The notes under the pieces are model-generated. The model worked only from the letters and a program-made list of their open reading frames with translations. It did not search any database and had not been told where the DNA came from. This document shows, one piece after another, positions 26,661 to 36,799 of a stretch of DNA of 39,944 nt. The position numbers and the translations under genes were made by a program. Within the stretch, counting starts at the first letter, position 1. Every line of letters begins with the position of its first letter. This DNA is from Burkholderiaceae bacterium (lineage in GTDB: Bacteria > Pseudomonadota > Gammaproteobacteria > Burkholderiales > Burkholderiaceae_D), in the NCBI GenBank assembly GCA_023653025.1, contig JAMNXS010000021.1, positions 1 through 39,944 on the forward strand, given 5' to 3'.

Positions 26661-27260
26661 TCAGCGGCCCGCCATGCGGTCGACGAACTGCAGCGCCTGC
26701 TGCTCCATATCGAGCACGAGACTGTCGACCTGCGCATGGAAATGGCGGTGGAACAGCAACGCCGGCATCGCGACGGCCAGGCCAAAAGCGGTGTTGTACA
26801 AGGCCACCGAGATGCCGTGCGCCACCTTCAGCGGGTCGGCGCCCGTGATCTCCTGCGCGCCAAACAGCTCGATCATGCCGACCACAGTGCCGAACAGGCC
26901 GAGCAGCGGCGCCAGCGTGGCCACCGTACCCAGCGCGGTCAGGTAACGCTCGAGCGCGTGCGCTGCCGCGCGTCCGGCTTCCTCGATGGCATCGCGCATG
27001 GCCTCGCGCGGCGTGCCCAGGTTGCGCATGCCGGCCGCCAGCACGCGGCCCAGCGGCGAGTTCTGCTCGAGTTGTGCGATGACTTCGTCGCTGACCGGGC
27101 CCTGGCGCGCCACGTCGAGCGCTTCGGCGAGCAGGGTCGGCGGCGCGATGCGGGCAGGCCGCAAGTACAATAGCCGCTCGACGATGATCGTGACGGCGAC
27201 GACAGAGGCGGCCAGCAGGAACCAGATCGGCCAGCCTGCCGCTTGAATCAATGCAAACAC
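26661..27260 (-). CDS. exbB: MotA/TolQ/ExbB family proton channel protein
   Basis: A 199-residue inner-membrane protein with three helices: residues 8-27, then LGTVATLAPLLGLFGTVVGMIELF (about 110-133) and ISVALYNTAFGLAVAMPALLF. The second and third helices carry the family signature that surrounds the ExbD helix. It is the first gene of exbB-exbD-lpxK-Trm112-kdsB and lies divergent from xseA across 376 bases, where its promoter should be. Confidence 0.93.
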   Translation of the reverse strand: MFALIQAAGWPIWFLLAASVVAVTIIVERLLYLRPARIAPPTLLAEALDVARQGPVSDEVIAQLEQNSPLGRVLAAGMRNLGTPREAMRDAIEEAGRAAAHALERYLTALGTVATLAPLLGLFGTVVGMIELFGAQEITGADPLKVAHGISVALYNTAFGLAVAMPALLFHRHFHAQVDSLVLDMEQQALQFVDRMAGR

Positions 27261-27636
27261 GCGCTTGCTCCGGGGTCATGAAATGGCAGCCTGCGACTGT
27301 ATCCGCTTCATCTTCTGCGAGCAAGGCAAGGCAGGGTCGGGGCGGCAATGATGCACGATTGACCAAACGCAGAGCCGTTGACCGGACAGTCACCCCGGTT
27401 TGTCCACCTTCGCTGTGGATAACTTTGTGGGAAAGCCGCCACGCGCGTCGAAAAGTCCTTGATTTCTAAGCATTTTCCGCAATTGCCTCAGAATCGGGCA
27501 GGAAAGATTTCCGCTTTAAAATCAATCACTTAAGAACTATTTTTTTGCCGTACGCGCCGATGTCGATCGCATTATTCCCTCATGGTAACTTTGTGGAAAG
27601 CCTGACAGATTCGCCGCAGAAAGCTTGGGAACGCAG
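27261..27636. promoter_or_regulatory. Divergent exbB/xseA control region with repeated motif
   Basis: No gene was found in these 376 bases. The stretch from 27460 to 27600 is strongly AT-rich. A direct repeat of about 17 bases, TAACTTTGTGG(G)AAAGCC, occurs at 27420-27437 and 27586-27602. The first copy overlaps TGTGGATAA at 27414-27422, an exact match to a DnaA box on the opposite strand. No fully convincing -35/-10 pair was placed for either gene. Confidence 0.5.
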
Positions 27637-29103: not shown

Positions 29104-29682
29104 ATGGAACATACGCTGCCCCCGCTGCCCTACCCGATGGACGGCCTCGCGCCGCACATCTCCAAAGAGACGCTCGAATATCACTACGGCAAGCACCATC
29201 AGGCTTACGTCACCAACCTGAACAACCTGATCAAGGGCACGCCGCACGAGAGCCAGTCGCTCGAGGAGATCGTCAAGAGTTCGAGCGGCGGCGTGTTCAA
29301 CAACGCGGCGCAGGTCTGGAACCACACGTTCTACTGGAACGGCATGAAGCCCAACGGCGGCGGTGCGCCGGCCGGCGCGCTGGCTGACGCGATCAATACG
29401 AAATGGGGCTCGTTCGACAAGTTCAAGGAAGAGTTCACCAAATCCTGCGTCGGCAACTTCGGCTCCGGCTGGACATGGCTGGTCAGGAAAGGCGACGGCA
29501 GCGTCGACATCGTCAACACCTCGAACGCCGGCACGCCGCTGACCGGCAGCGACACCCCGCTGCTGACCTGCGACGTCTGGGAGCACGCGTATTACGTCGA
29601 CACCCGCAACGCGCGCCCGAAGTATGTCGAGAACTGGTGGAATCTCGTGAACTGGGATTTCGTGGCAAAGAATTTCGGCTAA
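29104..29682 (+). CDS. sodB: Iron superoxide dismutase
   Basis: A 192-residue cytoplasmic dismutase. Metal ligands are His27, His74, Asp157 and His161 ([19 protein letters not shown]). Gln70 in [10 protein letters not shown] and the AGTPLT stretch mark the iron form rather than the manganese form. GGAAAGGAAG lies just before the start. It is followed by a terminator. The next genes handle sulfide; a shared role in redox stress is possible but not shown. Confidence 0.96.
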
Positions 29683-29702
29683 GCCGGTTCGCCCGAAAGA
29701 CC

Positions 29703-29735
29703 AACCCCGGCAGGGTGACCTGGCCGGGGTTTTTG
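29703..29735 (+). terminator. Intrinsic terminator after sodB
   Basis: AACCCCGG and CCGGGGTT pair around an inner CAGG/CCTG stem, followed by a T-rich tail. It lies 20 bases after the sodB stop and shortly before the end of the convergent metallo-beta-lactamase gene. Confidence 0.87.
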
Positions 29736-29758
29736 TTTGTTGCAACCCGCCGCTCCCA

Positions 29759-30643
29759 TCACAAGGCGTTGACTGGAATCTTCAGGTACGCCACCCCGTT
29801 CTCGTCCTTCGGCGGCATCTCGCCGGCGCGGATGTTGACCTGCACCGACGGCAGGATCAGCACCGGCATCTCCAGCGTCGCGTCGCGCGCGGTGCGCATC
29901 GCGACGAACGCGTCCTCGCTCACCCCGTCGTGCACGTGAATGTTCTTCGCGCGCTGCTCGGCGACCGTGGTCTCGAAAACGACCGGCCGGTCGTTCGGCG
30001 GGTAATCGTGGCACATGAACAGACGGGTCTGCGGCGGCAGGGCGAGGATCTTCTTTACCGAGCGGTACAGGGTCCGGGCATCGCCGCCGGGGAAATCGCA
30101 ACGGGCCGTGCCGACGTCCGGCATGAACAGCGTGTCGCCGACGAACACCGCATCGCCGATCTGGTAGGCCACGCAGGCCGGCGTGTGCCCGGGCACGTAG
30201 ATCACGCGCCCGGTGAGGTCGCCGATGTGGAAGGTCTCGTCCTCCTGCATCAGGTGATCGAACTGCCGCCCATCCGTCGAAAATGCCCGCTCGAGGTTGA
30301 AGATGCCCTTGAATACCTGCTGCACGGCCGTGATGTGGTCGCCGATGGCGGTCTTGCCGCCCAGCGCCCGCTTCAGGTAGGGGGCGGCGGTGATGTGGTC
30401 CGCATGCGCATGCGTCTCGAGGATCCACTCGACCGACAGCCGCTTCTCCTTGACGAAGGCAATCACCTTGTCGGCCGAGTCGGTTCGGGTCCGTCCGGAC
30501 TTCGGATCGTAGTCGAGCACCGAGTCGATGATCGCTGCCGGCGATCCTTCCTTCTCGTACACGATGTAGGTCACGGTCCACGTGGCCGGATCGAAAATTC
30601 CATGCACCCGGGGCCGGGGGGCTGCAGCAGCAGTAGCAGTCAT
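29759..30643 (-). CDS. Persulfide dioxygenase-like MBL-fold protein (Blh/ETHE1 type)
   Basis: A 294-residue metallo-beta-lactamase-fold protein. It opens with GIFDPATWTVTYIVYEKEG and carries HAHADH (His78, His80, Asp82, His83), GHTPACVAYQIGDAVFVGDTLFMPDVGTARCDFPGG and a late CHDYPP; this set is typical of ETHE1/Blh-type non-heme iron persulfide dioxygenases, which oxidise glutathione persulfide to sulfite. ATG 30643 has AAGGAG upstream. The frame stays open for 728 more codons antisense to the SQR gene, which is an artefact. It is divergent from the SQR operon and its promoter lies in the inverted repeat at 30671-30723, about 30 bases before the start codon. Confidence 0.9.
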   Translation of the reverse strand: MTATAAAAPRPRVHGIFDPATWTVTYIVYEKEGSPAAIIDSVLDYDPKSGRTRTDSADKVIAFVKEKRLSVEWILETHAHADHITAAPYLKRALGGKTAIGDHITAVQQVFKGIFNLERAFSTDGRQFDHLMQEDETFHIGDLTGRVIYVPGHTPACVAYQIGDAVFVGDTLFMPDVGTARCDFPGGDARTLYRSVKKILALPPQTRLFMCHDYPPNDRPVVFETTVAEQRAKNIHVHDGVSEDAFVAMRTARDATLEMPVLILPSVQVNIRAGEMPPKDENGVAYLKIPVNAL

Positions 30644-30670
30644 TGCGTATCTCCTTGCTGGGTCAATTAA

Positions 30671-30723
30671 CGTTGATACATTATATTGACTTATAATTTG
30701 TAAGTCAATATAATGTATCAACG
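30671..30723. promoter_or_regulatory. Perfect 23-bp inverted repeat with two opposed sigma-70 promoters
   Basis: The arms at 30671-30693 and 30701-30723 are exact reverse complements around a 7-base spacer. On the plus strand TTGACT (30686-30691) and TATAAT (30709-30714) are 17 bases apart. By symmetry the minus strand has TTGACT (30708-30703) and TATAAT (30685-30680), also 17 bases apart. Thus one element provides near-perfect promoters in both directions, toward the SQR operon and toward the persulfide dioxygenase gene. A repressor bound to it would block both. An ArsR-type sulfide sensor of the BigR/SqrR kind, whose known sites are AT-rich and overlap promoter -10 regions, is the natural candidate, but none is encoded in this window. 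Confidence 0.88.
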
Positions 30724-30829
30724 CGCTCGACCCGGCGCATCCGACCCGACGGCATAGCCAGAGATCCGCCAGCCGGGATCTGCCAACCGACATCAGCGAT
30801 TCCGGATTTACCTCACAGGAGGACAGTTC

Positions 30830-32434
30830 ATGGCCGTCAGCCCTACCCGCCACACCGACCACTTCGCCAGCGCGCCGCAGATCAGTCCGGCCGATGTCGC
30901 GCACATCGCCGCCCTCGGTTACCGCACCCTGATCAACAACCGCCCTGATGGCGAGGGCGGTATCGAGCAGCCGACCAGCGCCGAGATCGAAGCCGCAGCG
31001 GCAGCCGCGGGCTTGCGCTATGCGTATCTGCCGGTGGTCAGTGGCCAGATCACCGAACCGCAGGCGCGACGCTTCGCCGAACTGCTGGCGACGTCGCCGA
31101 AACCGGTGCTGGCTTTCTGCCGCAGCGGCGCGCGCTCGCAGAACCTGTTCCGCATGGCCAGCGGGCGTGGCAGCGCGCCGGCCGCTGCGCCCGCCTCCGC
31201 CGGCGCCTGCCAGTGGGGCGACAGTCATGACATCGTGATCGTCGGCGGCGGCAGCGCCGGCATCGGGCTGGCGGCAAGCCTGAAGAAGCGCCAGCCCAAC
31301 CTGCAGATCGCGATCATCGAACCCGCCGACAAGCACTACTACCAGCCCGCTTGGACGCTGGTCGGCGCCGGCGAATTCGAGGCGGCCGACAGCGTGCGCG
31401 AGATGGCCGCCGTGATGCCGGCAGGCGTCACCTGGATCAAGGCGGCCGCGACCGGCTTCGATCCGGAAAAGCGGCAAGTGCTGATCGACCGCGGCAATCC
31501 GGTCAGCTATCAGTACCTCGTGGTCGCGCCGGGCCTGAAGCTGGACTGGGAGGCCATTCCCGGGCTCGTCGAAACGCTCGGCAAGAACGGTGTCACCTCG
31601 AACTACCGCTACGACCTCGCGCCCTATACGTGGTCGCTGGTGCGCTCGATGAAGCCGGGCAAGGCGATCTTTACGCAGCCGCCGATGCCGATCAAATGCG
31701 CGGGCGCGCCGCAGAAGGCGATGTACCTGTCCTGCTCCGAGTGGGAGAAGCTGGGCGTGCTGAAAAACATCGACGTCCGCTTCCACAATGCCGGCGCGGT
31801 GCTGTTCGGCGTCCCCGACTTCGTGCCGCCGCTGATGGCCTACGTGAAGCGCTACGGTGCGGGCCTGCATTTCAACTCGCGCCTGGTAGCCATCGACGGG
31901 CCGGCGAAGCGGGCCTGGTTCGAAGAAAAAGATGCCGACGGCCAGGTGCGGCAGGTCGAGCAGGCCTTCGACATGATCCACGTCGTGCCGCCGCAGACCG
32001 CACCCGATGTCGTGCGCGAGAGCGTTCTGGCCAACGCCGACGGCTGGGTCGACGTCAACCAGCTTACGCTGCAGCACGTCCGCTACCCGAATGTGTTCAG
32101 CCTCGGCGACGCCTGTTCGTCGCCGAACGCGAAGACTGCGGCGGCCGCGCGCAAGCAGATCGTGGTGGTGGCCGAGAACCTGCTCGCGCTGCGCGCCGGA
32201 CGCGAACTCCCGACCCGCTATGACGGCTACGGCTCCTGCCCGCTCACGGTGGAAAAAGGCAAAATCGTGCTGGCCGAGTTCGGGTTCGGCGGCAAGCTTC
32301 TGCCCACCTTCCCGCTCGATCCCACCGTGGCGCGCCGATCGGCGTGGCTTCTGAAAAAGGACCTGCTGCCTGCGATCTACTGGAACGCGATGCTCAAGGG
32401 CCGCGAGTGGCTCGCCCGCCCGCTGGGGAGCTGA
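30830..32434 (+). CDS. DUF442 phosphatase-like domain fused to sulfide:quinone oxidoreductase
   Basis: A 534-residue fusion. Residues 1-110 are a DUF442/TIGR01244 domain (related to dual-specificity phosphatases and used like a rhodanese) with active-site CRSGARS, Cys97 and Arg102. Residues 133-534 are a flavoprotein with FAD motif VIVGGGSAG (136-144). Cys290 in KCAGAP and Cys470 in DGYGSCPL match the two redox cysteines of human SQOR (KCAGAPQK and YDGYTSCPL), and GDACSSPNAKTAAAARKQ is also conserved. It should oxidise sulfide to a persulfide and reduce quinone at the inner membrane. GGAGGA precedes ATG 30830. The DUF442 domain may accept the sulfane sulfur; that is inference. Confidence 0.9.
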   Translation: MAVSPTRHTDHFASAPQISPADVAHIAALGYRTLINNRPDGEGGIEQPTSAEIEAAAAAAGLRYAYLPVVSGQITEPQARRFAELLATSPKPVLAFCRSGARSQNLFRMASGRGSAPAAAPASAGACQWGDSHDIVIVGGGSAGIGLAASLKKRQPNLQIAIIEPADKHYYQPAWTLVGAGEFEAADSVREMAAVMPAGVTWIKAAATGFDPEKRQVLIDRGNPVSYQYLVVAPGLKLDWEAIPGLVETLGKNGVTSNYRYDLAPYTWSLVRSMKPGKAIFTQPPMPIKCAGAPQKAMYLSCSEWEKLGVLKNIDVRFHNAGAVLFGVPDFVPPLMAYVKRYGAGLHFNSRLVAIDGPAKRAWFEEKDADGQVRQVEQAFDMIHVVPPQTAPDVVRESVLANADGWVDVNQLTLQHVRYPNVFSLGDACSSPNAKTAAAARKQIVVVAENLLALRAGRELPTRYDGYGSCPLTVEKGKIVLAEFGFGGKLLPTFPLDPTVARRSAWLLKKDLLPAIYWNAMLKGREWLARPLGS

Positions 32435-32437
32435 GGC

Positions 32438-34195
32438 ATGCACAAGCTTGTGTTGCTGCCCGACTGGCTCCGGCGCTACCAACGCCGGTGGATCAGCGGC
32501 GACCTCACGGCCGGCCTGATCGTCACCGTGATGCTGATCCCGCAAAGCCTCGCCTATGCGATGCTCGCCGGCCTGCCGCCGCAGGTCGGCCTGTATGCGA
32601 GTGTGCTGCCGCTGGTCGCGTATGCCATGTTCGGCACCAGCATGACGCTGGCCGTCGGTCCGGTCGCGGTGGCCTCGCTGATGACGGCCAGCGCACTGGC
32701 GCCGCTGGCAACCGCTGGCACGGCCGAGTACATCGCACTGGCGGTGCTGCTGGCGCTGCTGTCGGGCCTGATGTTGTTCGCCGCCGGCTTGCTGCGCATG
32801 GGCTTCCTCGCCTATTTTCTCAGCCATCCCGTCATCAGCGGGTTCATCTCCGGTTCAGCGGTACTGATCGCCATCGGCCAGCTGAAATCGCTGCTGGGCG
32901 TGCCGCTGCCGTCGGGCAGCATCGTCGATACCCTCGCCGCGCTGCTCGCATCCATCGACCGGATCAATCCCGTGACTGCCATGATCGGCGGCGCCGCGAT
33001 CGCCTTCCTGCTGTTCGCGCGGCGACGCCTCGCGCCGCTGCTCGAGACGCTCGGGTTGCCGTCGAAGCAGGCGCAGATGATGTCCCGGCTGGCGCCGATG
33101 GCGGCGGTCATCGCGGCCACCGTCGCCGTCGCACAGACCGGCGTGGACCGCACGGCCGGCGTATCGGTCGTCGGCGCCGTGCCCTCGGGCCTGCCGGCGC
33201 TCGGGCTGCCGTCGCTGGGGTGGTCGCAGTTGAACGGACTGTGGCTGCCGGCGCTGCTGATCTCGCTGGTCGGCTTCGTCGAAAGTGTATCGGTGGCGCA
33301 ATCGCTGGCCCTCAAGCGCGGGGAGCGGATCCGTCCGGATCGCGAACTGCTGGGCATCGGCGCGGCCAACATCGCCAGCGCCGTCTCCGGCGGCTACCCA
33401 GTCACCGGCGGCTTCGCGCGTTCGGTCGTCAATTTTTCCGCCGGCGCGCACACGCCAGCTGCGGGCGTCGTGTCGGCCATGCTGATGACGATCGTGATCG
33501 CCGGCATGACAGGCTGGTTCGAATCGCTGCCGCATACGGTGCTGGCCGCGACCATCATCGTTGCGGTGACGGCGCTGATCGATATCGATACCCTCAGGCA
33601 GGCATGGCGCTACGACAAGGCCGATGCGCTGTCGCTGCTGCTGACCTTCGGCGGCGTGCTGCTGCTGGGCGTGGAGGAAGGCATCCTGCTCGGCGTGGCG
33701 CTGTCGCTGGCGGTGCTGGTCTGGCGCAGCAGCCATCCGCACATGGCCGTCGTCGGGCGCGTGCCGGGCACCGAGCACTTCCGCAACATCGACCGCCAGC
33801 AGGTCGAGACTCTACCCGGCCTGATCGCGCTGCGGATCGACGAGAGCCTGTATTTCGCGAACGCGCACATGCTGGAGGAAAAGGTCGAGAGCCTGCTCGC
33901 CAGCCACCCGGAGACTCGCGGTATACTGTTGATCATGTCGGCAGTCAACCAGCTCGATGCCACCGCACTGGGCGCCCTGACCGATCTCGAGAAGGACCTT
34001 GCGTCACGCAACATCTGCCTGCAATTTTCCGAAGTCAAGGGACCCGTACTTGACCGTCTGCGCCCCACACCCCTGGGTCAGCGCATGAAAGACCGGATCT
34101 TCCTCAGCACGCACCAGGCCTTTCTCGCATTCGCCGGCACCGACTCACCACCCAACGAACCCACCCGAGATACCCGATGGATTTCGACGCCCTGA
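32438..34195 (+). CDS. SulP family anion transporter with STAS domain
   Basis: A 585-residue inner-membrane transporter. The N-terminal ~430 residues form the SulP core with SGDLTAGLIVTVMLIPQSLAYAMLAGLPPQVGLYAS (20-55) and AASAVSGGYPVTGGFARSVVNFSAGA in the centre. A C-terminal STAS domain follows at about 450-560 (LIALRIDESLYFANAHMLEEKVESLL). The family moves sulfate, bicarbonate and related anions. It starts three bases after the SQR stop and overlaps cydA by 19 bases, so it is part of the same operon; in this setting the cargo may be sulfite or sulfate, but direction and substrate are inferred. Confidence 0.92.
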   Translation: MHKLVLLPDWLRRYQRRWISGDLTAGLIVTVMLIPQSLAYAMLAGLPPQVGLYASVLPLVAYAMFGTSMTLAVGPVAVASLMTASALAPLATAGTAEYIALAVLLALLSGLMLFAAGLLRMGFLAYFLSHPVISGFISGSAVLIAIGQLKSLLGVPLPSGSIVDTLAALLASIDRINPVTAMIGGAAIAFLLFARRRLAPLLETLGLPSKQAQMMSRLAPMAAVIAATVAVAQTGVDRTAGVSVVGAVPSGLPALGLPSLGWSQLNGLWLPALLISLVGFVESVSVAQSLALKRGERIRPDRELLGIGAANIASAVSGGYPVTGGFARSVVNFSAGAHTPAAGVVSAMLMTIVIAGMTGWFESLPHTVLAATIIVAVTALIDIDTLRQAWRYDKADALSLLLTFGGVLLLGVEEGILLGVALSLAVLVWRSSHPHMAVVGRVPGTEHFRNIDRQQVETLPGLIALRIDESLYFANAHMLEEKVESLLASHPETRGILLIMSAVNQLDATALGALTDLEKDLASRNICLQFSEVKGPVLDRLRPTPLGQRMKDRIFLSTHQAFLAFAGTDSPPNEPTRDTRWISTP

Positions 34196-35586
34196 CCCTG
34201 GCGCGACTGCAATTTGCCTTCACTGTCAGTTTCCACATCATCTTTCCCGCCTTCTCGATCGGTCTGGCCAGCTATCTCGCCGTGCTCAACGGCCTGTCGC
34301 TCGTCACCGGCCGCGCGGTCTACCTGAACCTGTTCAACTACTGGAAGAAGATCTTCGCGGTCGCCTTCGGCATGGGCGTCGTGTCGGGTATCGTGATGAG
34401 CTACCAGTTCGGCACCAACTGGTCGGTGTTTTCGGACAAGGTCGGTCCCGTGCTCGGCCCGCTGATGGGCTACGAGGTCCTGTCGGCCTTCTTCCTCGAG
34501 GCCGGCTTCCTCGGCGTGATGCTGTTCGGCCGCGAGCGCGTCGGCGCCCGGCTACATTTCTTCGCCACCGCGATGGTGGCGCTCGGCACCTTCATGTCGG
34601 CATTCTGGATCCTATCGGTCAACAGCTGGATGCAGACGCCGGCCGGCTACGGCTTCAACGACGCTGGGCAGTTCATCGTGAAGGACTGGATGGCGGTCAT
34701 CTTCAACCCGTCGTTCCCGTATCGCCTCGTCCACATGCTGCTCGCCGCCTACCTGACTACCGCCTTCGTGGTCGGCGCGGTCGGCGCGCTGCACCTGCTC
34801 CGGGCGCGCAAGCTCGCCGCCGGCAATGAAGGCGCCAGAACCATGTTCTCGATGGCGATGTGGATGATCGTCTGCACCGCGCCGCTGCAGATCGCGGCCG
34901 GCGATTTCCACGGCCTGAACACGCTCGAGCACCAGCCGGCGAAGATCGCGGCGATGGAGGGCCATTTCGACTCGCATGCAGGCGCGCCGCTGATCCTGTT
35001 CGGCATTCCGAACGCCGCCGAGGAGCGCGTCGATGCGAAGGTCGCGATCCCGAAACTCGGCAGCCTGATACTCACGCATGATCCCGACGGCGTGGTGCGC
35101 GGCCTGAAAGAGTGGAAGCCCGAGGAGCGACCGCCGGTCGGCATCCTGTTCTGGAGTTTCCGGGTGATGGTCGGCATCGGCATGGCCATGCTCGGCGTCG
35201 GACTCTGGAGCCTGTGGGTGCGCGCCCGCGGCCGGCTGCACGATGCGCACTGGCTGCATCGCGCGGCGGTAGCAATGGGGCCGAGCGGCTTTGTCGCCGT
35301 GATCGCCGGCTGGATCACGACCGAGGTCGGGCGCCAGCCTTACACCGTGTACGGCCTGCTGACCACGGCCGAGTCGGTGTCGGCGATCGATGCACCGGCC
35401 GTCGGCAGCTCGCTGCTGGCCTTCATCGTGGTCTACTTCGCCCTGTTCGGCGCCGGCACCTTCTACATCCTGCGGCTGATGGGCAAGCCGCCGGAAGCGG
35501 CCGAACCCGGCCTGCCCCGTGAACCGATACGCGCGGCCGGCATCCTGCCGTCGCCGGCTATCGCTGCCGGCCATCGGAGGATCTGA
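34177..35586 (+). CDS. cioA: Cytochrome bd-type quinol oxidase subunit I (CIO type)
   Basis: A 469-residue heme-bearing subunit of a bd oxidase that reduces oxygen with quinol electrons. Heme ligands visible are His20 (TVSFHIIFPAF), His186 (YRLVHMLLA) and Met331 (FWSFRVMVG); Glu100 and Glu108 (GYEVLSAFFLEAGFLGVMLFG) belong to the proton path. The quinol loop is short, which marks the cyanide-insensitive (CIO) branch rather than E. coli CydA (522 residues). GWITTEVGRQPYTVYGLLTTAE is conserved. Its start lies inside the last 19 bases of sulP, and it shares one base with cydB. cydDC assembly genes are not in the window. Confidence 0.94.
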   Translation: MDFDALTLARLQFAFTVSFHIIFPAFSIGLASYLAVLNGLSLVTGRAVYLNLFNYWKKIFAVAFGMGVVSGIVMSYQFGTNWSVFSDKVGPVLGPLMGYEVLSAFFLEAGFLGVMLFGRERVGARLHFFATAMVALGTFMSAFWILSVNSWMQTPAGYGFNDAGQFIVKDWMAVIFNPSFPYRLVHMLLAAYLTTAFVVGAVGALHLLRARKLAAGNEGARTMFSMAMWMIVCTAPLQIAAGDFHGLNTLEHQPAKIAAMEGHFDSHAGAPLILFGIPNAAEERVDAKVAIPKLGSLILTHDPDGVVRGLKEWKPEERPPVGILFWSFRVMVGIGMAMLGVGLWSLWVRARGRLHDAHWLHRAAVAMGPSGFVAVIAGWITTEVGRQPYTVYGLLTTAESVSAIDAPAVGSSLLAFIVVYFALFGAGTFYILRLMGKPPEAAEPGLPREPIRAAGILPSPAIAAGHRRI

Positions 35587-36596
35587 TGCTCGCCAATATC
35601 GACCTGCCGCTGGTCTGGGCCGGCCTGATCGCCTTTGCGGTGCTGGCCTATGTGATTCTCGACGGCTTCGACCTCGGCGTCGGCATCCTCTTCCTGTTCG
35701 TCAACGGAGAGGCCGCGCGCGACGAGATGATGAACTCCGTCGCCCCGGTCTGGGACGGCAACGAAACCTGGCTGGTGCTGGGCGGCGGCGGCCTGTTCGC
35801 CGTCTTCCCGCTGGCCTATGCGGTCATCATGCCGGCGCTGTACGCACCGATCATAGCAATGCTGCTGGCACTGGTATTCCGCGGCGTGGCGTTCGAGTTC
35901 CGCTGGAAGACGCAGCGCGGCAAGTTCGTCTGGGACTGGGCCTTCATGCTCGGCTCGACCGCAGCCGCCTTCTTCCAGGGCATCGCGCTCGGCGCCTTCG
36001 TGCAAGGCATCCCGGTGGCCGGCCGTGCCTATGCCGGCGGCTGGTGGGACTGGCTCACGCCGTTCAGCCTCACTACCGGCGTGGCGCTGGTGATCGGCTA
36101 CGCGCTGCTGGGCGCGACCTGGCTGATCTGCAAGACCGAGGGCGACGTGCAGGACAAGGCCGTGCGCTTTGCATGGATCAGCGGCGCATTGACGCTGCTG
36201 CTGATCGCCATCGTCAGCCTGTGGACGCCTTTCCTCGATGAGCATTTCCGCGCGCGCTGGTTCGCGTGGCCGCAAGGGCTTTACGTGATGCCGGTGCCGA
36301 CGCTGGTGGCGGCCTGCGCGGTCGCGCTCTTCGTCGGCTTGCGCGACCGGCACGAGCTGATGCCCTTCATCGCGTCGCTCGGCCTGTTCGTGCTGTCCTT
36401 CATCGGCCTGTGCATCAGCTTCTATCCGCACATCGTGCCGTCGTCGGTCACGCTGTGGGATGCGGCCGCACCGCCGGAAAGCCAGGCCTTCCTGCTGGTC
36501 GGCGCGGCCGTCCTGCTGCCGATCATCCTGGCCTACACCGCGTACTCATACTGGGTGTTCCGCGGCAAGGTGAACGCTGTCGGCGGCTATCACTGA
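35586..36596 (+). CDS. cioB: Cytochrome bd-type quinol oxidase subunit II (CIO type)
   Basis: A 336-residue multi-pass partner of subunit I. It opens with LPLVWAGLIAFAVLAYVILDGFDLGVGIL and has VAPVWDGNETWLVLGGGGLFAVFPLAYA and VFRGVAFEFRWK, which are constant in CydB/CioB. The length is slightly below E. coli CydB (379), as is usual for CIO enzymes. Starts on the last base of cioA and ends on the first base of the DUF2474 gene. Confidence 0.95.
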   Translation: MLANIDLPLVWAGLIAFAVLAYVILDGFDLGVGILFLFVNGEAARDEMMNSVAPVWDGNETWLVLGGGGLFAVFPLAYAVIMPALYAPIIAMLLALVFRGVAFEFRWKTQRGKFVWDWAFMLGSTAAAFFQGIALGAFVQGIPVAGRAYAGGWWDWLTPFSLTTGVALVIGYALLGATWLICKTEGDVQDKAVRFAWISGALTLLLIAIVSLWTPFLDEHFRARWFAWPQGLYVMPVPTLVAACAVALFVGLRDRHELMPFIASLGLFVLSFIGLCISFYPHIVPSSVTLWDAAAPPESQAFLLVGAAVLLPIILAYTAYSYWVFRGKVNAVGGYH

Positions 36597-36700
36597 TGCG
36601 CGAGCGGCTCCAAAAGCTGGGGTGGTTCGTGCTGATCTGGGCGCTGTCGGTGGCGGCGCTCGGGGCGGTGGCGTGGGTGATACGGTGGGCTGTGCGGTGA
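36596..36700 (+). CDS. DUF2474-type small membrane subunit (CydX-like)
   Basis: A 34-residue protein: a short basic start (MRERLQKLGW), then one hydrophobic helix (FVLIWALSVAALGAVAWVIRW). The first base of its ATG is the last base of the cioB stop, so it is translationally coupled. Position, length and single helix match DUF2474 proteins found after CIO-type bd oxidases, which are thought to play the part of CydX in stabilising the complex. Its function here is inferred from that parallel. Confidence 0.82.
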   Translation: MRERLQKLGWFVLIWALSVAALGAVAWVIRWAVR

Positions 36701-36707
36701 TTCGGCG

Positions 36708-36799
36708 ATGGCGGATTTCGCTGCGCTCTATCCGCCCTGCGGCCTCGCAAGCTGCATGACCATAACGTAGGGCGGATAGAGCGCAGCGAAATCCGCCAT
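36708..36799. repeat. 31-bp perfect inverted repeat, possible bidirectional terminator
   Basis: Arms at 36708-36738 and 36769-36799 are exact reverse complements with a 30-base spacer. The core GGGCGGATAGAGCGCAGCG followed by AAATCCGCC resembles a dispersed repeat found between genes in many beta- and gammaproteobacteria. It sits between the convergent bd oxidase and glutaryl-CoA dehydrogenase genes and could end or protect both transcripts; there is no T-run. Confidence 0.85.

Follow-up and report, generated by a model that had tools for sequence, protein, structure and literature searches.

The 39,944-base stretch of DNA analysed here (the window) carries a gene for a persulfide dioxygenase (PDO) and, divergent from it, a gene for a DUF442 sulfur transferase fused to a sulfide:quinone reductase (SQR)-like domain. 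The gap between the two gene starts, at 30643 on the minus strand and 30830 on the plus strand, is 186 bases, as an earlier sequence-only reading had stated, and contains a long palindrome. The genes and the features assigned to the gap are as follows.

29759..30643, minus strand: persulfide dioxygenase (PDO; ETHE1-type sulfur dioxygenase), 294 aa; PF00753, dioxygenase half of the Blh model
30671..30723, no strand: whole palindrome; 23-bp perfect arms, 7-nt spacer
30678..30701, plus strand: predicted BigR-type site 1, left arm and centre; 18.3 bits, top of the window
30680..30708, minus strand: predicted PDO promoter; −35 TTGACT 30708-30703, −10 TATAAT 30685-30680
30680..30714, no strand: conserved 35-bp core, ATTATATTGAC-N13-GTCAATATAAT; pattern in 14 of 21 genus genomes, variants in 3 more
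30686..30714, plus strand: predicted promoter of the DUF442-SQR operon; −35 TTGACT 30686-30691, −10 TATAAT 30709-30714
30693..30716, minus strand: predicted BigR-type site 2, mirror of site 1, which it overlaps at the centre; 6.9 bits, second in the window
30830..32434, plus strand: DUF442 sulfur transferase fused to SQR-like domain, 534 aa; PF04273, PF07992
32438..34195, plus strand: SulP family anion permease, from profile matches; same operon by position
34177..35586, plus strand: cytochrome bd-type oxidase subunit I; PF01654, NCBIfam models below cut-offs
35586..36596, plus strand: cytochrome bd-type oxidase subunit II; TIGR00203

PDO matched the Blh model over its dioxygenase half only (391 bits, below the model's full-length cut-off). 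The DUF442-SQR protein scored above the cut-off of TIGR01244 and, with 176 bits, below that of the type III SQR model.

Direct reading and a repeat search both confirmed the perfect inverted repeat of the sequence-only reading, with 23-bp arms and a 7-base spacer. The left arm, CGTTGATACATTATATTGACTTA, spans 30671-30693 and the right arm, 30701-30723, is its exact reverse complement; the spacer is TAATTTG. The repeat search extended the palindrome to 26-nt arms that are 96% complementary and separated by 1 nt. When perfect dyads were listed over the whole window (arms of at least 11, spacers of up to 40), the best 15 fell at just two places, 30671-30723 and a longer repeat at 36708-36799. The GC content of the element is 24.5%, versus 65.5% for the window. 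Folded as a single DNA strand, the palindrome had a z-score of −10.7, and none of 200 shuffles was equally stable. The sequence-only reading had also proposed looking for further copies of the arm in the genome. A search with a 16-base arm segment, allowing up to three mismatches, yielded three places: the two arms and one place on contig C46 with three mismatches, where no dyad was found. The reversed-pattern control yielded one match.

A promoter scan bore out the presence of TTGACT-17-TATAAT on both strands (plus, 30686-30714; minus, 30708-30680), each an 11/12 match to consensus and each split as had been claimed, with the −35 in one arm and the −10 in the other. In the 1.5 kb scanned, three promoter-like sites were found, versus a mean of 0.2 in shuffles; the third is weaker and also lies within 30671-30723. 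The expected transcription starts, as predicted from the hexamers, are near 30721 (plus) and near 30673 (minus). The two −10 elements are separate (30680-30685 and 30709-30714), unlike the single −10 that serves both directions in the bidirectional promoters of E. coli. Judging from this geometry, the footprints of two polymerases would overlap almost wholly.

Related loci were gathered through an SQR search over 56 relatives. The core pattern ATTATATTKAC-N13-GTMAATATAAT occurred at one place each in 14 of the 21 genus genomes. The core of genome G009 differs by two changes, and G005 and G015 carry the version CTATTGAC-N13-GTCAATAG, bringing the genomes with some version to 17 of 21. A genome pattern scan found no exact core match in G001, G004, G008 and G012, and no near version was found in the DUF442 loci of G001, G008 and G012, the last of which has the right half only. 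The core adjoins PDO in 17 of the 17 genus genomes having a version. On its opposite side lie DUF442 or DUF442-SQR in 13, a BigR-type gene in three (G005, G015, G020) and SulP in one (G013). All 21 genomes carry a BigR-type gene, including the four in which no whole element was seen. The comparison with relatives suggests that the element is functional.

Beyond the genus, a PDO gene and a BigR-type gene flank the element in all 16 Achromobacter loci compared (up to three mismatches), both Nitrotoga loci (four and five mismatches) and six more genomes of the order. Its neighbours in G177 are PDO on one side and apparently YeeE-like genes on the other. A dyad with up to three mismatches was present in 19 of the 80 loci kept, out of 489, for dyad comparison (three from the genus and 16 from Achromobacter), and was not found in the available DNA of the Nitrosomonas, Methylophilus, Marinobacterium, Zavarzinia and Sphingomonas loci. 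Searches for bigR gave matches in 81 of 250 genomes, and 28 bigR loci of the order (L119-L146) were examined. A divergent PDO was present in 19 of these; six of the 19 have the dyad and 13 of the 19 PDO-bigR gaps use a different layout. Outside the genus, the dyad layout is a minority of PDO-bigR gaps. The inner core TATTGAC-N13-GTCAATA matched in 13 of 399 order genomes, and the reversed pattern in two. Eight of the 13 matches adjoin PDO and all eight have the outer A/T of the −10 on both sides, versus none of the other five. The 3-kb loci of those five contained no PDO, DUF442, SQR or BigR-type match.

We compared the promoter geometry of 37 elements, including those of 11 of the 16 Achromobacter loci. 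All 37 have T-A-n-n-n-T at the −10 on both strands with 17-bp spacing, the three middle bases being variable; this conservation is partly built into the search patterns as regards the inner TA, the outer T lying outside the inner-core pattern. The T, A and T are the bases of the −10 that sigma needs most. The PDO-ward −35 matches TTGACA at five or six of six positions in all 37 elements. The other −35 matches it at four to six positions in the genus and seven other order genomes, and at two to five in Nitrotoga and Achromobacter. In some genomes, both −10s deviate alike (TAGAAT/TAGAAT, TAGATT/TAGATT, TAAATT/TAAATT and TAAACT/TAAACT); in G240, G034, G036 and G177 the pair is not alike.

Covariation between the arms was counted in 29 of the 37 elements, G003 and seven Achromobacter rows being excluded as identical or near-identical. 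Arm cells were complementary in 91.5% of cases versus 87.3% in shuffles, nine cells were changed on both sides versus 2.7, and the covariation score was 0.117 versus 0.050 (0/500 shuffles in each case). The numbers of covarying pairs (322/500) and of pair types (70/500) were not above shuffles. In a control in which partners were slid by −1, ten both-sided cells were counted, but pairing was only 31.7%. With one element per clade, P was 0.008-0.009 for 11 clades, and 0.02 and 0.06 for 10. Overall, symmetric covariation across the elements is modest. Template switching at imperfect palindromes, described in passages of PMC7202029, could yield paired changes without selection and we therefore weighed the covariation lightly. 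Beyond the arms, 116 of 252 flank cells, from 28 of the 37 elements, were symmetric, versus 90.5 when right flanks were reassigned (P 0.0002, with relatedness uncontrolled). Perfect outer symmetry extends over 9 bp here, 0-7 bp in 16 other genus elements and 8 bp in G270. In many relatives, AATTAA/TTAATT-like boxes flank one or both arms at a distance of about 10-15 bp, near the expected starts (here, 30665-30679 and 30715-30729).

The element also resembles sequences upstream of bigR. In 14 of 20 bigR promoters from the genus, a motif, ATAGTTTATT(G/T)-nnn-(T/C)ATA-nnn-TGT, can be aligned to the element over its left arm and centre. Among the other six, that of G000 has a near form, those of four genomes have a variant and one was unmatched. 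No PDO match was found in the 20 bigR loci (about 3 kb each, some cut by contig ends). The left arm is thus kept in bigR promoters without PDO nearby, which argues that it is more than a promoter.

A 24-column matrix was built from these 14 promoters, all from other genomes of the genus; G000 was held out, and the variant group (G001, G005, G008, G020) and G013 were excluded. Over the window, the top-scoring place was 30678-30701 on the plus strand, at 18.3 bits, and the second was its mirror, 30693-30716 on the minus strand, at 6.9 bits; the best place outside the element scored −0.5. None of 1000 column-shuffled matrices did as well within the element, and a score of 18.3 bits has a probability of 7.5e-6 per base in random sequence of the element's composition. 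A matrix of 18 bigR promoters gave 22.5 bits at the same place. Applied to seven elements of other families, the 14-promoter matrix gave a mean of 15.8 versus −4.6 when shuffled (0/1000; the best, G080, reached 26.8). On 15 other genus elements it gave 11.3 versus −2.8 (1/1000; 0 to 30 of 1000 for elements taken singly), and on the two Nitrotoga elements 1/1000 shuffles was as good. The match to five Achromobacter elements was weak, the mean being equalled by 25/1000 shuffles and single elements by 16 to 318. The orientation of the best site relative to PDO varies between close relatives, being plus in G000, G011 and G009, and minus in G016, G019, G002 and G013. Such variation is expected if the element works equally either way. 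Inversion of the spacer is a possible source of these differences, the centre being too symmetric to tell.

Exact matches to the motif ATTGA-NNN-ATA-NNN-TGT occur at two places in the genome, one upstream of bigR (C22:51345) and one in the element; the motif was chosen from those two sites themselves. With one mismatch allowed, nine places matched, including the two exact ones, versus two for the reversed control. The seven inexact matches were dropped: six loci were scored for them (L200, which overlaps L199, was scored within it only), and five of these reached at most 0.6 bits, the one on C23 reaching 2.9. At L199 (G000:C5, about 27240-27290), an AT-rich repeat, TGTGTCAATTGATAATTACAATGTATAAGTAAAT...ATTGACA, precedes a gene apparently encoding a PucC-type transporter. 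The repeat is reminiscent of a photosynthesis-repressor box, and the organism may therefore be phototrophic. As would an operator, the element at 30671-30723 overlaps promoters and resembles the site in the regulator's own promoter.

The regulator gene, C22:51400-51729, encodes 110 aa and is unlinked to the element. Its product, the sole BigR-type protein found in the genome, matched PF01022 with 50.3 bits; the two other PF01022 matches of the genome are on C25, above the cut-off, and C94, below it. Among solved structures, the best match was BigR (3pqj, E 1.1e-26), followed by the ArsR-family entries 13ct/6o8k-6o8o, which we take to be SqrR. Residues C36 and C102 align with the BigR cysteines in 3pqj, giving the protein both sensor cysteines; by numbering, they correspond to the pair Cys42 and Cys108 given for BigR in passages of PMC5823870. 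The C22 protein did not reach the NCBIfam BigR equivalog cut-off (116.9 versus 155 bits) and we therefore refer to it as BigR-type, not BigR. Downstream of its gene are two YeeE/YedE-like genes and then a DUF2892-like gene. The genes flanking the element, encoding PDO, a sulfur transferase and SQR, are of the kind expected among the targets of a BigR/SqrR-type regulator.

It is likely, in our assessment, that the palindrome is an operator of the BigR/SqrR type (ArsR family) lying over two outward-facing, near-consensus sigma70 promoters in the same ~50 bp, which would be mutually exclusive and both freed by persulfide. The observations behind this proposal are the palindrome, the promoter geometries and their conservation, the gene context, the bigR-promoter motif and the two cysteines; from these we infer repressor binding, the sulfide response, the start sites and mutual exclusion. 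In the absence of sulfide, the C22 protein would sit on the arms and centre, covering one promoter's −35 along with the −10 of its partner and silencing both. Because a protein at either predicted site would cover one −35 and the opposite −10, either site should suffice, by geometry, to block both promoters. Sulfide or persulfide would then oxidise the two conserved cysteines and the protein would leave the DNA. The freed element would admit a single polymerase at any moment, oriented either way, to transcribe PDO or the DUF442-SQR-SulP-bd operon. The near-consensus hexamers make competition between polymerases likely here. The sequence-only reading had envisaged twin promoters under one ArsR-type operator: the promoter geometry, the PDO/BigR-type context and the bigR-promoter motif favour this arrangement, but the matrix describes two overlapping mirror sites, not one. 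A further step, which we offer tentatively as possible rather than probable, is that operator and promoter pair are one sequence and that an element admitting one polymerase at a time holds the ratio of SQR, which makes persulfide, to PDO, which consumes it, constant. The TTGAC and TATA segments read by sigma would then also belong to the repressor sites, so that the two promoters could not drift apart.

The element might instead consist only of two overlapping sigma70 promoters, near-symmetric by chance and without an operator, its symmetry arising from abutting consensus −10 and −35 hexamers. The fixed 13-bp gap would then be a requirement of the 17-bp spacer on both strands, the T, A and T of the −10 are indeed kept on both strands, and bidirectional promoters are common in bacteria, according to passages of PMC12825309. 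Yet the flanks outside the hexamers are symmetric too (116/252 versus 90.5), the −10s of some genomes, though not of the four named above, depart from consensus in pairs, bigR promoters retain the arm although no PDO was found near them, and a BigR-type gene is a recurrent neighbour of the element; we regard a purely promoter-based origin as improbable. The perfect arms could also be largely mutational, template switching having copied one arm onto the other, in which case symmetry and paired changes would be no evidence of dimer binding. The process is in print (passages of PMC7202029), and the length of the outer symmetry differs among close relatives, as given above. Template switching leaves the conservation of the core across families and the match to bigR promoters unexplained, however, and is in any case compatible with operator function; we consider it unlikely as the main origin of the arms.

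If the palindrome is an operator, it might serve another repressor of the genome. Within PF01022, the regulator family covered by the search, the matches on C25 (over the cut-off) and C94 (under it) are candidates for this role, and the likeness to bigR promoters extends over just half of the element. That the regulator is not the C22 protein nevertheless seems quite doubtful: just one BigR-type protein was found in the genome; the motif common to the bigR promoter and the element, admittedly derived from these two sites, matches exactly nowhere else; and three genus genomes have an additional BigR-type gene immediately next to the element. Perfect inverted repeats can also mark mobile-element ends, terminators or structural RNAs, but none of these was indicated by any analysis and we regard such an identity as extremely remote. 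A mobile-element end was rejected because the element is not repeated in the genome and is kept beside the same gene in relatives, a terminator because no terminator-like site was called at the element, and a structural RNA because there was no Rfam match in 29500-31500.

Palindromic operators over overlapping divergent promoters occur in bioO of E. coli (BirA) and in tetA/tetR of Tn10, with other repressor families, signals and genes. The BigR-type operator proposed here is also akin to the bigR operon of Xylella fastidiosa and Agrobacterium (BigR, Blh = DUF442-ETHE1). According to passages of PMC5823870, that operon likewise has a two-cysteine ArsR-type repressor and sulfur transferase/dioxygenase targets; the repressor recognises the −10 region, and H2S/polysulfide inactivates it. 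BigR is encoded inside that operon; the C22 regulator gene, in contrast, is unlinked to its proposed targets, PDO and DUF442-SQR, which are in divergent orientation with a single palindrome over both promoters. SqrR of Rhodobacter capsulatus and YgaV of E. coli belong to the same ArsR subfamily and respond to sulfide/persulfide (passages of PMC9774250). The site deduced for SqrR in that source, ATTC-N8-GAAT, is absent from 30671-30723, direct reading of which found neither ATTC nor GAAT. Candidate BigR operators are mentioned for Acinetobacter in a passage of PMC7315123. A search of the open-licence literature, mostly at title level, met no description of such a BigR-type operator for Burkholderiales.

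In the bidirectional promoters of E. coli, as described in passages of PMC12825309, polymerase orientations exclude each other, competition becomes visible once activity is raised, and a repressor can act on both directions, as AcrR does at acrA/acrR. Exclusion at the element studied here is predicted from its geometry. The E. coli promoters share a −10 and their starts are mostly 18, but also 10 or 23, bp apart (same passages); here, in contrast, the −10s are separate, the predicted starts are about 48 bp apart and each −35 abuts the opposite −10. The present layout, with these features, a proposed superimposed operator, and a distribution over several families with changing partners, differs from the class portrayed in those passages. 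The parts are of kinds already known: a persulfide-sensing ArsR repressor, PDO/SQR targets and overlapping divergent promoters.

If the proposal is true, sharing one site between two mutually exclusive promoters, with a persulfide sensor in control of both, would fix the SQR/PDO balance compactly. SQR makes persulfide and PDO removes it, and their balance therefore decides the safety of sulfide oxidation. In addition, the element would suggest which sequence the BigR-type regulators of some Burkholderiales may bind, and would serve as a natural test case of polymerase competition at near-consensus divergent promoters.

The sequence-only reading had further proposed co-regulation of PDO with the whole SQR-SulP-bd operon. 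The comparative evidence favours twin promoters under one operator; the bd-oxidase part is not general in the genus: the genes at 34177-36596 are present in the window and in G013, and absent from the stretches of five of six relatives. In G013 (C2, L211), the order is PDO-element-SulP-CydA-CydB, without DUF442-SQR there. A SodB-like gene adjoins PDO in both G013 and the window. Downstream in the window, a 34-aa ORF at 36596-36700 on the plus strand overlaps the stop codon of the gene for bd subunit II; its product looks like a membrane protein (MRERLQKLGWFVLIWALSV...) and may be an accessory peptide of the bd oxidase. The perfect inverted repeat at 36708-36799, with 31-nt arms and a 30-nt spacer, lies between the bd-oxidase genes and a convergent acyl-CoA dehydrogenase gene; a terminator and a dispersed extragenic repeat are both possible identities for it.
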